64,000 nt of DNA, from NCBI GenBank assembly GCA_018675425.1, contig JABGYD010000035.1:1-64000 (forward strand), read 5' to 3'. A model generated the notes under the pieces. It was not told the DNA's origin. It did not search any database and saw nothing but the letters and a program-made list of their open reading frames with translations. A program made the position numbers and the translations under genes. Shown here in pieces: positions 44,097 to 47,573 of this stretch; position 1 is the first letter of the stretch; every line of letters starts with the position of its first letter. The stretch comes from Kordiimonadaceae bacterium (lineage in GTDB: Bacteria; Pseudomonadota; Alphaproteobacteria; Sphingomonadales; Emcibacteraceae).

Positions 44097-44279
44097 TTAA
44101 ATATCTGTTTGGGTGCAAATTTTTATTGAAGAATACTTAAATTCCATCTCTATTATTCCTGTATTTTTTATTTCATAATAATTCTTTAAGCCGTAATAAA
44201 TTTCTGTTAACCCGTTGAAAATAAGTATACTAAGCAGCGGAATAAAGCACAGGCTACTGTATTGTATTAATATAGTCAT
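44097..44279 (-). CDS. possible small membrane protein, 60 residues
   Basis: A minus-strand frame starting with ATG at 44279 encodes one hydrophobic helix (about residues 2-24, MTILIQYSSLCFIPLLSILI) and a polar tail. GAGA lies upstream. A TTGACT (44340-44335) and TATAGA pair 15 bases apart could serve as promoter. I recognise no family. The frame can also be opened further upstream to a TTG at 44345. The rest of this 379-base gap between the chorismate mutase gene and 44449 holds only the forward promoter at 44389. Confidence 0.33.
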   Translation of the reverse strand: MTILIQYSSLCFIPLLSILIFNGLTEIYYGLKNYYEIKNTGIIEMEFKYSSIKICTQTDI

Positions 44280-44388
44280 TTTTTTTCTCTTCTGATTTTG
44301 TTCACTATATGTTCTATATAAATTTTGAGAACAAGTCAAGCACAAGACAGAGAATAATGATTCAATAATTGCAAATTTAATAATGATG

Positions 44389-44417
44389 TTGAATCAGTTC
44401 GCTTATAAAAGTATAGT
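44389..44417 (+). promoter_or_regulatory. likely promoter of the Cys-X4-Arg protein pair
   Basis: TTGAAT (44389-44394) and TATAGT (44412-44417) are exactly 17 bases apart. The predicted start of transcription is about 25 bases before the ATG at 44449, which has AGGA eight bases upstream. Confidence 0.6.
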
Positions 44418-44448: not shown

Positions 44449-45531
44449 ATGATCTTTCAAAAAATTGTAGCTGTGCCTACATATAAAATCCTGTGTTTTA
44501 GTCTTTGTTTATTAATTACTATAAGCTCTGCTAAATCACAAAATTCATCGCTTGCTGTTAATACTAATATTGCCTCTTTGGGAAACCACTCAGTAATTAG
44601 CCAATGGGGAAATGTGATTTTTGCTGATCAACCCGATCTGGCTACTATTGGTTTATATAAGGATTTGGATGTCAAAATAGTCATCAATATTCGGGGTGAG
44701 GCTGAAGATGAAGGGTACGACGAACAAAAAGCAGTTGAGGCTGCAGGAATGTCATTCGTTCAAATACCTTACATGGAAGGACGGGGCATAAATGAAAATA
44801 GTGTTGATGAATTACTTTCTCTTTTAAATATAACAGAAAAAAATGGAACTAAAGTAATTTTGCATTGTACTCATTCGCAGAGAGCCGGATCACTCCTTGG
44901 AGCGGCCCTTTACAAGGCTGGTCATTCCCGAGAAGTAGCAAATTCAGCCGCCGAGAAAGCTGGTATGACAAGCAAATTCTTAATTAAAGTCCATAATGAG
45001 TTCTTGGATACAATAGAAATTGATCCTGTGATAGACCTTATTAGTGGGAGTATGCAAACGCCATTCGGAAACCTTGATAAGACCCCACAACTTGGACATG
45101 TGGTATACAGTCGGCAACCGGATGAATTAACAATTCCAATGCTAAAAGAAAAAGGTTTTGATTTTGTTTTAAGTGCTCGTTTTGATGATGAGCCAGTTGG
45201 TTTTGATAGTAAAAAATTACTTGAAGATCATGGTGTTCCATTCAAACAAATTTCTTTTTACGGTGGTAATATGTCTGATCGGCCACGAGGAATTGACGCG
45301 GAGGCGATTGATGAAATTAGTAAAATTTTGAAGGACACCGCATTACGTGGCCAAAAAGTACTTTTCCACTGTCAATCTGGTCAACGCTCTGCTGGTGCAC
45401 TAGCCGCGGTTTTAGTTAAAGATTATGGCTACGCCCCTGATGATGCTCTTGTATATGCAGCCAATGCTGGGCTTACAAGCGAAGGTGTTATTGCGGCCTT
45501 GGATGAGTACTTTATTAGCCTCGAAAGGTAA
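44449..45531 (+). CDS. exported protein with two Cys-X4-Arg phosphatase/sulfurtransferase-like domains
   Basis: The 360-residue product has a signal peptide (hydrophobic residues about 14-27, likely cut near SSAKS), so it should be periplasmic or exported. Two tandem copies of one domain follow, each with a QPD start motif (residues 61-63 and 223-225), an I(N)IRG/SARF strand, an aromatic PYM/FYGG loop and an active-site loop HCxxxQRxxG: Cys140-Arg145 and Cys308-Arg313. The spacing Cys-X4-Arg is that of the DUF442/TIGR01244 (Blh-like) group and rhodaneses, one residue shorter than the Cys-X5-Arg of tyrosine phosphatases. Enzymatic function is not known; a phosphatase or a sulfur transferase is possible. 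Confidence 0.82.
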   Translation: MIFQKIVAVPTYKILCFSLCLLITISSAKSQNSSLAVNTNIASLGNHSVISQWGNVIFADQPDLATIGLYKDLDVKIVINIRGEAEDEGYDEQKAVEAAGMSFVQIPYMEGRGINENSVDELLSLLNITEKNGTKVILHCTHSQRAGSLLGAALYKAGHSREVANSAAEKAGMTSKFLIKVHNEFLDTIEIDPVIDLISGSMQTPFGNLDKTPQLGHVVYSRQPDELTIPMLKEKGFDFVLSARFDDEPVGFDSKKLLEDHGVPFKQISFYGGNMSDRPRGIDAEAIDEISKILKDTALRGQKVLFHCQSGQRSAGALAAVLVKDYGYAPDDALVYAANAGLTSEGVIAALDEYFISLER

Positions 45532-45534
45532 ATA

Positions 45535-46173
45535 ATTAAAATTCAGAGTAAAGCTTTTATTATATCAAAACTTATTTTTAAATTTTTTATTATTCTGATG
45601 TTTTTTATAAGTGTTTCTAACGCACAGTACATTACATTATCCGAACTTGACCGGATAAACCCTAAACTTCAACTTCCTTTTGGTAATCTTGATAAAACTC
45701 CTTATTTTGGGAACGTTGTATATGCTGCCCAACCTGATCTGGATACGGTTAAAATATTAAAAGATCAGGGTTTTGATCTAATTATAAATATTCGAGAACT
45801 AAATGAAAATATTGGTTTTGATGAAAAGAAACTTTTAGAAAAACAAGGTATTTTATATGTTCAAATTCCTTATATGCAAGAGCCATCATTTAATTCTGAA
45901 TTTTCTGATGTTGCCCTCAACAAGATAAAACTTGCTATTGATGATGGTACACGTAAAGGACTAAAAATATTGCTTCATTGTAGCCATGGTCAAAGGGTTG
46001 CATCTACTCTGGGTGCAATACTTTATAGAGATTATGGTTATACTGTAGAAGAGGCATTTGGGGCAGCTAATAAGGCAGGGATGATGTCAGAGTGGTCAGT
46101 ACCCCGTTTTTATCGTTTGGTTGAGCGGTTGGATCAAATGGTTCCAGCCAATGTAATGTCAACCGAGGAGTAA
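45535..46173 (+). CDS. exported single-domain Cys-X4-Arg protein, apparent ATT start
   Basis: This is a paralogue of the preceding protein, with one domain: QPD, INIREL, PYMQE and HCSHGQRVAS (Cys and Arg at 149 and 154 counted from 45535). It shares PFGNLDKTP almost exactly with the second domain of its neighbour, evidence of recent duplication. The first ATG, at 45598, would leave only ten residues before the mature part. The frame stays open upstream to the neighbour's stop and encodes a textbook signal peptide (K-rich start, then LIFKFFIILMFFISVSNAQ). Only ATT at 45535 (or ATA at 45532) can start it, with AAGG at 45525-45528 about six bases ahead. An ATG start at 45598 remains possible. 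Confidence 0.72.
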   Translation: MKIQSKAFIISKLIFKFFIILMFFISVSNAQYITLSELDRINPKLQLPFGNLDKTPYFGNVVYAAQPDLDTVKILKDQGFDLIINIRELNENIGFDEKKLLEKQGILYVQIPYMQEPSFNSEFSDVALNKIKLAIDDGTRKGLKILLHCSHGQRVASTLGAILYRDYGYTVEEAFGAANKAGMMSEWSVPRFYRLVERLDQMVPANVMSTEE

Positions 46174-46211
46174 GTATATTTCCTGAGAAAATTTTATTGC
46201 TTATTTAAAAA

Positions 46212-47573
46212 TTAGCGAGTTAGAAAATCAGGCATATGTCCACCCATTCCAAGGGTTTTTTCTAAAGAATTACTATCTTGCGATGTTTCTTTTTTAATTG
46301 GCTTTTCATCATGGTGTATTTGTTTTTTTGTTGGTTTTTTATTTATAGAATTATGTCTAGAGGTATTTTTAGTCTTCTGATGATGCTTAGAAGCAGAGTT
46401 GTTCGCTTCAGAACTAGACTGACGTTGAGTTTTATTATCTTCTAGTGCTTCATTGGGGACATTATAAAGTGGTATTTCTTTAGCAAGAAATTTAAGGAGA
46501 CCATCCAAATACTTTTTATCCAACTGAGTACTGAGGGTAAAGGAGGTGCCTTTTTTTCCGGCACGCCCAGTTCGACCTATACGGTGGACATAATCTTCAG
46601 GATTTGAGGGCACATCAAAATTAAATACATGGCCAACATCAGGGATGTCTAGTCCACGTGCTGCGACATCACTAGCTACAAGTATTTTAGTTTTACCTTC
46701 TTTAAAGGCAGTAAGTACTTCCATGCGAGTACTTTGATGTAAATCACCATGTAACTCTGAAGCACTAAATCCATGGACCTGAAGGGATTTATTAACTATC
46801 TTAACTTCTTTTTTGCGATTACAAAAAATAATAGCGTTAGTCACGTTTTCAGCTTTAAGTAAATGACGAAGTACCTGCCTCTTTATACTATCTGTTCCCT
46901 TAAATTTTACCAGGTGTTGTTCGATGGTTACGGCTGTTTGCGTTGGTGAAGAAACCTCAAACTCCCTAGGATCTTTAAGAAAACTATCAGTGAGTTTCTT
47001 TACTTCTGAGGGCATAGTTGCTGAAAAAAATAATGACTGGATTTTTTTAGGTAACATTTTACAAATTTTTTCGATATCAGGAATAAAACCCATATCAAGC
47101 ATCCTATCTGCTTCATCAACAACCAAAATTTGTACACCGCTAAGCATCACGTTTCCACGTTGCATATGATCAAGAAGTCGCCCCGGTGTAGCGATCAGTA
47201 CATCAACGCCTTTATCAAGTTTTTTAACTTGGCCAACAAAATCAGTCCCACCAATAAGCAAAGCACAGGAGAGTTTTGAATTTTTTCCATATTTTATAAA
47301 ACTCTCTTCTACTTGTGCAGCAAGTTCACGAGTAGGTTCTAAAATGAGAGATCGTGGCATCCGAGCACGTGCACGACCCTGAGCAAGAATATCAATCATT
47401 GGAAGTGTAAAGCCAGCAGTTTTACCTGTCCCGGTTTGGGCTATACCAAGAATATCACGGCCCTGTAGAACACCTGAAATGGCTTTTTTCTGGATAGGTG
47501 TTGGTTCGCTATATCCTGCATCTTTGATTGCAGAGAGTAGTTCGTCACTTAGGCCTAAATAATCAAAACTCAT
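46212..47573 (-). CDS. DEAD-box RNA helicase, RhlE-like
   Basis: DEAD-box helicases remodel RNA, often in ribosome assembly or cold adaptation. Motifs in order: Q motif (FDYLGLS...PTPIQ), AQTGTGKT, PTRELAAQ, TPGRLLDH, DEAD, SAT, ARGLD and HRIGRTGRAG. A C-terminal tail rich in Lys, His, Ser and Asn follows. The start MSFDYLGLS at 47573 is chosen by similarity to RhlE proteins; the frame is open to 47678, and an AAGGA 13 bases ahead of 47573 is rather far. It is convergent with the Cys-X4-Arg pair. Confidence 0.92.
   Translation of the reverse strand: MSFDYLGLSDELLSAIKDAGYSEPTPIQKKAISGVLQGRDILGIAQTGTGKTAGFTLPMIDILAQGRARARMPRSLILEPTRELAAQVEESFIKYGKNSKLSCALLIGGTDFVGQVKKLDKGVDVLIATPGRLLDHMQRGNVMLSGVQILVVDEADRMLDMGFIPDIEKICKMLPKKIQSLFFSATMPSEVKKLTDSFLKDPREFEVSSPTQTAVTIEQHLVKFKGTDSIKRQVLRHLLKAENVTNAIIFCNRKKEVKIVNKSLQVHGFSASELHGDLHQSTRMEVLTAFKEGKTKILVASDVAARGLDIPDVGHVFNFDVPSNPEDYVHRIGRTGRAGKKGTSFTLSTQLDKKYLDGLLKFLAKEIPLYNVPNEALEDNKTQRQSSSEANNSASKHHQKTKNTSRHNSINKKPTKKQIHHDEKPIKKETSQDSNSLEKTLGMGGHMPDFLTR

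Follow-up and report, generated by a model that had tools for sequence, protein, structure and literature searches.

Two adjacent genes with three C-X4-R domains

The window, that is, the whole stretch of 64,000 nucleotides that was analysed, comes from a marine bacterium of the Emcibacteraceae (Alphaproteobacteria) and contains two adjacent and intact open reading frames on the same (+) strand, separated by 66 nt, as an earlier note on this DNA had described. ORF1 (44449..45531, + strand, 360 aa) encodes a signal peptide and a fusion of two Cys-X4-Arg (C-X4-R) domains, A and B, and ORF2 (45598..46173, + strand, 191 aa from its ATG) encodes a third domain, C. Domain A (44539..45030, +) has the P-loop HCTHSQR, in which Ser replaces the loop Gly, and its general-acid loop is devoid of a conserved acidic residue. 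Domain B (45049..45528, +) has the P-loop HCQSGQR, and the Asp in the insert of its general-acid loop is invariant in all 12 B domains compared. The P-loop of domain C is HCSHGQR, and the His-Cys-X4-Arg signature is kept in all three domains. The homology of the three copies proposed in the earlier note is confirmed by a genus-plus-family profile, with E-values of 1e-59 to 3e-66 per domain, far beyond chance. Pairwise identities in the window are 34% for A-B, 35% for A-C, and 39% for B-C. A search with the same profile found no fourth domain copy in the 2.2 Mb window genome.

A promoter-like element, TTGAAT-17-TATAGT (44389..44417, +), lies upstream of ORF1, and the positions of its TTG and TATA are conserved in 11 aligned genomes. 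The intergenic gaps between the corresponding genes in relatives range from -1 to 40 nt, and it is plausible that ORF1 and ORF2 form one transcription unit.

Signal peptides and the start of ORF2

The signal peptides of ORF1 and its relatives were judged by eye and by hydropathy. The ORF1 signal peptide (MIFQKIVAVPTYKILCFSLCLLITISSAKS, 44449..44538, +) has a hydropathy of 2.9 and a basic n-region, and aligns with the signal peptides of all relatives. A Sec export signal is present in ORF1 and in the relatives and is absent from ORF2 read from its ATG; thus, the claim of signal peptides on both proteins holds for ORF1 only. From its only standard start (ATG 45598), ORF2 begins with MFFISVSNAQ, which leaves nine residues ahead of the likely cleavage site, is too short, lacks a basic n-region, and reaches a best 12-residue hydropathy of 1.05. 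The in-frame codons upstream of this ATG (45532..45597, +) would encode a full signal peptide (IIKIQSKAFIISKLIFKFFIILMFFISVSNAQ) with a hydropathy of 2.8, ending in SVSNAQ, and contain no ATG, GTG, or TTG. The frame of C is open directly after the ORF1 stop codon (TAA, 45529-45531), such that ORF1 and C share one frame with a single stop between them. The codons following the stop are ATA ATT AAA ATT CAG, and a Shine-Dalgarno-like GAAAGG lies six bases ahead of the ATT at 45535. Domain C of the sister genome G116 likewise has no ATG at the start of its signal peptide. Either ORF2 uses a rare AUU or AUA start, or the export of C has been lost, or the assembly contains an error, and the export of C in the window species is doubtful.

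A divergent small gene beside the array

A conserved small gene encoding 60 residues with one likely membrane segment lies upstream on the opposite strand (44097-44279, -). The sequence GTTC-N7-GTTC is the LexA site of alphaproteobacteria, and SidA is a small SOS-induced membrane protein that inhibits division. One such box is present in the window (44300-44314), which is unremarkable alone, as 0.93 are expected by chance on average. Homologues of the small gene (32-77 aa, with a conserved N-terminus and a variable C-terminus) are present in 28 of the family's 33 genomes, and in other genera they sit elsewhere in the genome. Of the 16 homologue loci read, 15 have a GTTC-N7-GTTC or GAAC-N7-GAAC box at most 80 nt from the start, mostly overlapping TTGACT and TAGAAC promoter hexamers, and the lexA promoter of the window genome carries a GAAC-N6-GAAC repeat of similar look. 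The small membrane protein matches no Pfam family. It looks like an SOS-controlled, SidA-like candidate division inhibitor of the family; PMC4211646 treats SidA and DidA of Caulobacter. LexA control of the array itself was considered and rejected, since the box lies approximately 150 nt upstream of ORF1 but approximately 20 nt from the divergent gene and thus more likely serves the latter. As the small gene is located elsewhere in other genera, it is not tied to the array; it is an incidental finding, but a more striking one than the array.

A four-domain array and its erosion

The genus, coded g1, is represented by 14 genomes in the collection, and the locus is present in 12 of them. The closest named records are MAGs that carry the labels Emcibacteraceae, Kordiimonadaceae, or unclassified Alphaproteobacteria. 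Four domains are found at the locus in 10 of the 14, A and B each in a gene of its own and C-D fused in a third, with C and D lying on separate contigs in 2 of these 10 genomes. Each of these genes begins with ATG and nearly always has a clear ribosome-binding site and a signal peptide, and in several C-D proteins the signal peptide ends in a lipobox-like Cys when read from the sequence. The gene order in relatives is AspS, a TPR-SPOR lipoprotein, chorismate mutase, A, B, C-D, in some genomes an enoyl-CoA hydratase, a GGDEF protein, and a DEAD-box helicase.

The A-B fusion of the window lineage came about when A lost its stop codon and B its signal peptide. The fusion is common to the sister genome G116 (81% identical), whereas other relatives keep separate genes. 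The window lacks domain D as well as the genes for the GGDEF protein and the TPR-SPOR lipoprotein. The synteny comparison places at 46134..46212 the deletion that removed D and whatever separates C from the DEAD-box helicase in relatives, namely the GGDEF gene and, where present, the enoyl-CoA hydratase gene. Given the four-domain locus of the relatives, the fused A-B, and the lost D, the two-plus-one layout is a reduced state of a four-domain array and not its typical form. Domain C of G116 (L095, G116:C19:63722-64132) is a pseudogene with frameshifts and five stop codons, while the fused A-B gene there is intact. The statement that no copy is decayed is correct for the three loops of the window, but the array as such is eroding, as D is lost in the window and C is dead in the sister species.

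Between the window and G116, A+B shows a dN of 0.107 and a dS of 1.13, with divergences of 14/7/41% at codon positions 1/2/3, and is under strong purifying selection. The corresponding values for the window C and the G116 pseudogene are 24/20/34%, as expected if the window C was kept under constraint while the G116 copy decayed. The best explanation is that C and D are being lost in the window lineage and that A and B were fused and kept under selection. A partnership with the upstream TPR-SPOR lipoprotein or chorismate mutase was rejected; both are common neighbours, but the window no longer has the lipoprotein gene, and a separate promoter region precedes the array. A plasmid origin was also rejected, with no match for ORF2.

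Ancestry of the domains

A phylogeny built from 62 domains recovers A, B, C, and D as one clade each (100/99, 99/92, 100/99, and 100/100, respectively), and A+B+C as one clade as well (100/98). The sister group of A+B+C (92/89) consists of exported single-copy proteins from g4, a neighbouring genus in the family. Domain D sits on a very long branch, and a single origin of all four domains is not rejected (p-AU 0.2).

The earlier note had taken the shared PFGNLDKTP as a mark of recent common ancestry of B and C. The tree contradicts this, as B and C are separate clades that each span the genus, their identity is 39%, and C groups with A rather than with B (95/85). The B-C split predates the diversification of the genus. 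The sequence PFGNLDKTP represents one form of a motif that both B and C have retained across the genus; it is an old motif and does not point to a recent duplication. Exported single-domain homologues are common in the same order, where they occur in many genera and several families, which does not support the view that stand-alone exported members are unusual, and G065 provides a second case of adjacent copies. The kind of protein is already known, and the array is what is new.

Fold and family

AlphaFold models of the domains are DUSP folds, with a mean pLDDT of 81 and a pTM of 0.55 for A-B and a mean pLDDT of 85 and a pTM of 0.80 for the C-D protein of a relative. In the alignment from which ORF1 was modelled, all B rows fell on domain A, such that the B half of the model rests on two sequences. 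The top 50 Foldseek matches are DUSP-fold or PTP proteins, and the best single-domain matches include 3GXH, 2F46, and TpbA. The TM-scores, normalized by target, are 0.63-0.73 for the nearest C-X4-R structures 3GXG/3GXH and 2F46. In profile comparisons with solved structures, 3GXG, annotated as a putative phosphatase of DUF442, ranks first (E 7.7e-13), followed by NMA1982 (2F46, 8.3e-9) and the periplasmic TpbA (5.8e-6).

PF04273 (BLH_phosphatase/DUF442) scores 26.9 bits with the whole of ORF1 against a gathering cut-off of 26.1. Domain A alone falls below this cut-off at 21.1, B and C are not reported, and the single-copy relative L048 passes with 36.8. TIGR01244 gives 35.4 bits for ORF1, under its curated cut-off of 85.85, and no match for ORF2. 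Of the grouping proposed in the earlier note, the DUF442-like character and the C-X4-R loop are supported. The only Pfam call for ORF2 is DSPc (33.9 against 33.5), and ORF1 additionally passes for PTP-SAK, Tc-R-P, and, on a short segment, Rhodanese. This last match (PF00581) is confined to the loop-helix segment, no rhodanese appears among the top 50 Foldseek matches, and the domains do not have the rhodanese fold.

The QP motif, the E-loop Glu, and the loop His, Cys, and Arg are invariant in A-D and the aligned single copies. Predicted structures, Foldseek, and the alignment agree on a DUSP fold with a C-X4-R loop and a Glu pairing with the Arg. The C-X5-R loop of dual-specificity and protein tyrosine phosphatases is absent from the array domains and the single-copy relatives, which have C-X4-R. 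The loops of the paralogues are constant over the genus: HCTHSQR in A, HCxSGQR in B, HCSHGQR in C, and HCGSGDR in D. In the general-acid loop, A has no conserved acid, B has the invariant Asp, C has Asp or Glu in 8 of 10 sequences, and D has several Asp, with positions that shift with gaps. By profile and predicted fold, A, B, and C are DUSP-fold proteins nearest to DUF442 (3GXG, NMA1982), a domain family that is known but poorly characterised.

The DUF442 proteins (the Blh domain, the SQR-fused DUF442, NMA1982, and Shewanella 3GXG/3GXH) share with the array domains the DUSP fold, the H-C-X4-R loop, the E-loop Glu, and a near full-length profile match. In contrast to them, the array has signal peptides, a tandem layout, and no fusion to SQR or a persulfide dioxygenase; domain A lacks the loop Gly, and single array domains stay under the PF04273 cut-off. 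In some of the same genomes, the classical cytoplasmic DUF442-SQR operon is present apart from the array. Cdc14 proteins have one active site, of the C-X5-R type, and classical tandem rhodaneses usually have one inactive domain. Cdc14-type proteins resemble the array in having two consecutive DUSP-fold domains and are the top Foldseek matches, but the two-domain superposition is poor (rmsd 13-17). The periplasmic PspE (PMC2593051) and the tandem-domain rhodaneses have a C-X4-R loop like the array, and classical rhodaneses are also tandem; on the other hand, they have the rhodanese fold and not the DUSP fold, and the catalytic Cys is kept in all array domains. TpbA, the periplasmic DUSP of P. 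aeruginosa (PMC4409338), is likewise exported, with a single DUSP domain of similar fold, but has a C-X5-R loop (HCKHGNNR) and the general acid Asp105, and its profile E-value to the array is only 5.8e-6.

Genomic context

SQR is found in 9 of the 10 g1 genomes with a full array and in 1 of the 4 where the array is reduced or missing (hypergeometric 41/1001, with no correction for kinship). A search found no SQR in the window genome and no SoxB in genus g1. In genus g4, only one of the genomes with a single-copy relative has an SQR match at the same cut-off. A tie of the array to sulfide oxidation through SQR is suggestive in g1 but fails in g4, where the single-copy protein occurs largely without SQR, and it was not retained. 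In the seven g4 genomes whose flanks were read (L015, L017, L018, L022, L023, L025, L027), the single-copy exported relative lies between a convergent formate dehydrogenase gene and the divergent cysD sulfate-assimilation genes; a fatty-acid desaturase takes the place of cysD in a few g4 cases. As support for sulfur chemistry, the genomic context is weak.

A classical sulfide operon is present in two other loci (L091, L094; G049:C32, G091:C348) and consists of an ArsR-type regulator, an MBL-fold dioxygenase-like protein, a DUF442-SQR fusion, and a SulP permease; in L091 it adjoins cytochrome bd-like genes. A search did not find this operon in the window genome. In G027 (L044:6722-7787), a glutathione peroxidase gene is followed by an overlapping single-copy relative.

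Sulfur transfer or phosphate hydrolysis

The best explanation of the whole is a reduced, exported four-domain array that arose by tandem duplication and whose domains would work as periplasmic sulfur transferases, to which a probability of approximately 0.5 is assigned; the sulfur-transfer function by itself has about even odds. A single-copy exported DUF442-like protein would have undergone tandem duplication to give the genus-specific A, B, C-D array. The mature proteins would lie in the periplasm, where the loop Cys may pick up sulfane sulfur, supplied by thiosulfate, polysulfide, or a persulfide. The sulfur would be held as Cys-SSH in the anion pocket that the loop forms together with the Arg/Glu pair, before passing to a thiol acceptor; the loops, which differ among the paralogues, suggest distinct donors or acceptors.

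The DUF442 domain of Blh is a thiosulfate sulfurtransferase, and full-length Blh has a Vmax of 18 umol/mg/min (PMC5823870). The DUF442 domain of a fused SQR forms an active-site persulfide and is a sulfur transferase (PMC6441731). On the other hand, NMA1982, also a C-X4-R enzyme, is a very slow phosphatase with a kcat of 4.4e-5 per s; it hydrolyses DiFMUP by the PTP mechanism, and D71A costs just about half of its kcat/Km (PMC10716126). Sulfur chemistry is favoured because of the short loop, the lack of an acid in A, and the contrast in rates among these published enzymes. The acidic residues that B, C, and D carry in the general-acid loop speak against it, as do the Pfam matches to DSPc (ORF2) and PTP-SAK (ORF1), and B, C, and D could hydrolyse phosphate.

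The strongest rival sees the domains as phosphatases of the periplasm, comparable to NMA1982 and TpbA, with phosphoproteins or small phosphorylated compounds as substrates and a short loop still able to bind phosphate. Phosphatase activity of the array domains is the less probable of the two chemistries; in its favour are the DUSP fold, the DSPc and PTP-SAK matches, the profile matches to NMA1982 and TpbA, and the general-acid loop, which has an invariant Asp in B and acidic residues in most C and all D. Hydrolysis of DiFMUP by NMA1982 proves that a C-X4-R enzyme can act in this way (PMC10716126), but its turnover is extremely low, and A has neither a conserved acid nor the glycine that all NMA1982 homologues keep in the loop. 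In the cited literature, the sulfur transferases are the only enzymatically robust C-X4-R members of the DUSP fold. Moreover, no kinase or phospho-target gene is linked to the array, and the GGDEF protein near the arrays of several relatives has no evident membrane segment by eye, unlike TpbB. Regulation of a neighbouring GGDEF protein in the manner of TpbA and TpbB was rejected, as the protein of the relatives looks soluble and its gene is missing in the window.

A rather improbable alternative is that the paralogues differ in chemistry, with A (no acid, CTHSQR) acting as a sulfur carrier or transferase and B, C, and D as hydrolases or as partner or regulatory domains. Across the genus, a distinct loop and a distinct acid-loop pattern are maintained in each paralogue, and D has its very long branch; however, the same chemistry with different substrates would yield the same pattern. 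More speculative, and a long shot, is the reading of A, B, and C-D as a relay in the periplasm, in which the four active-site cysteines of the tandem DUSP-fold domains hand sulfane sulfur from one specialised paralogue to another, with SQR or some other periplasmic supplier of sulfide or thiosulfate acting upstream; a sulfur carrier of this type would be new. That the system is already useless in the window species and on its way out, with no function to be sought, would fit the deleted D, the signal peptide of C without a start codon, the dead C of the sister species, and the missing SQR, but it is very improbable, as A+B has been strongly constrained since the split from G116, the loop of C is intact, and the divergence of C equals the expectation for one constrained and one dead copy.

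Meaning for the family

The locus of the window is by itself a modest variation on a known family. The C-X4-R domains of the DUSP fold stand between phosphatases and sulfur transferases, and their published activities disagree. Within one genus, the array offers four exported paralogues whose loops are conserved but differ from one another, along with naturally occurring stages of fusion and loss, which makes it well suited to asking which loop residues determine the choice between the two chemistries.
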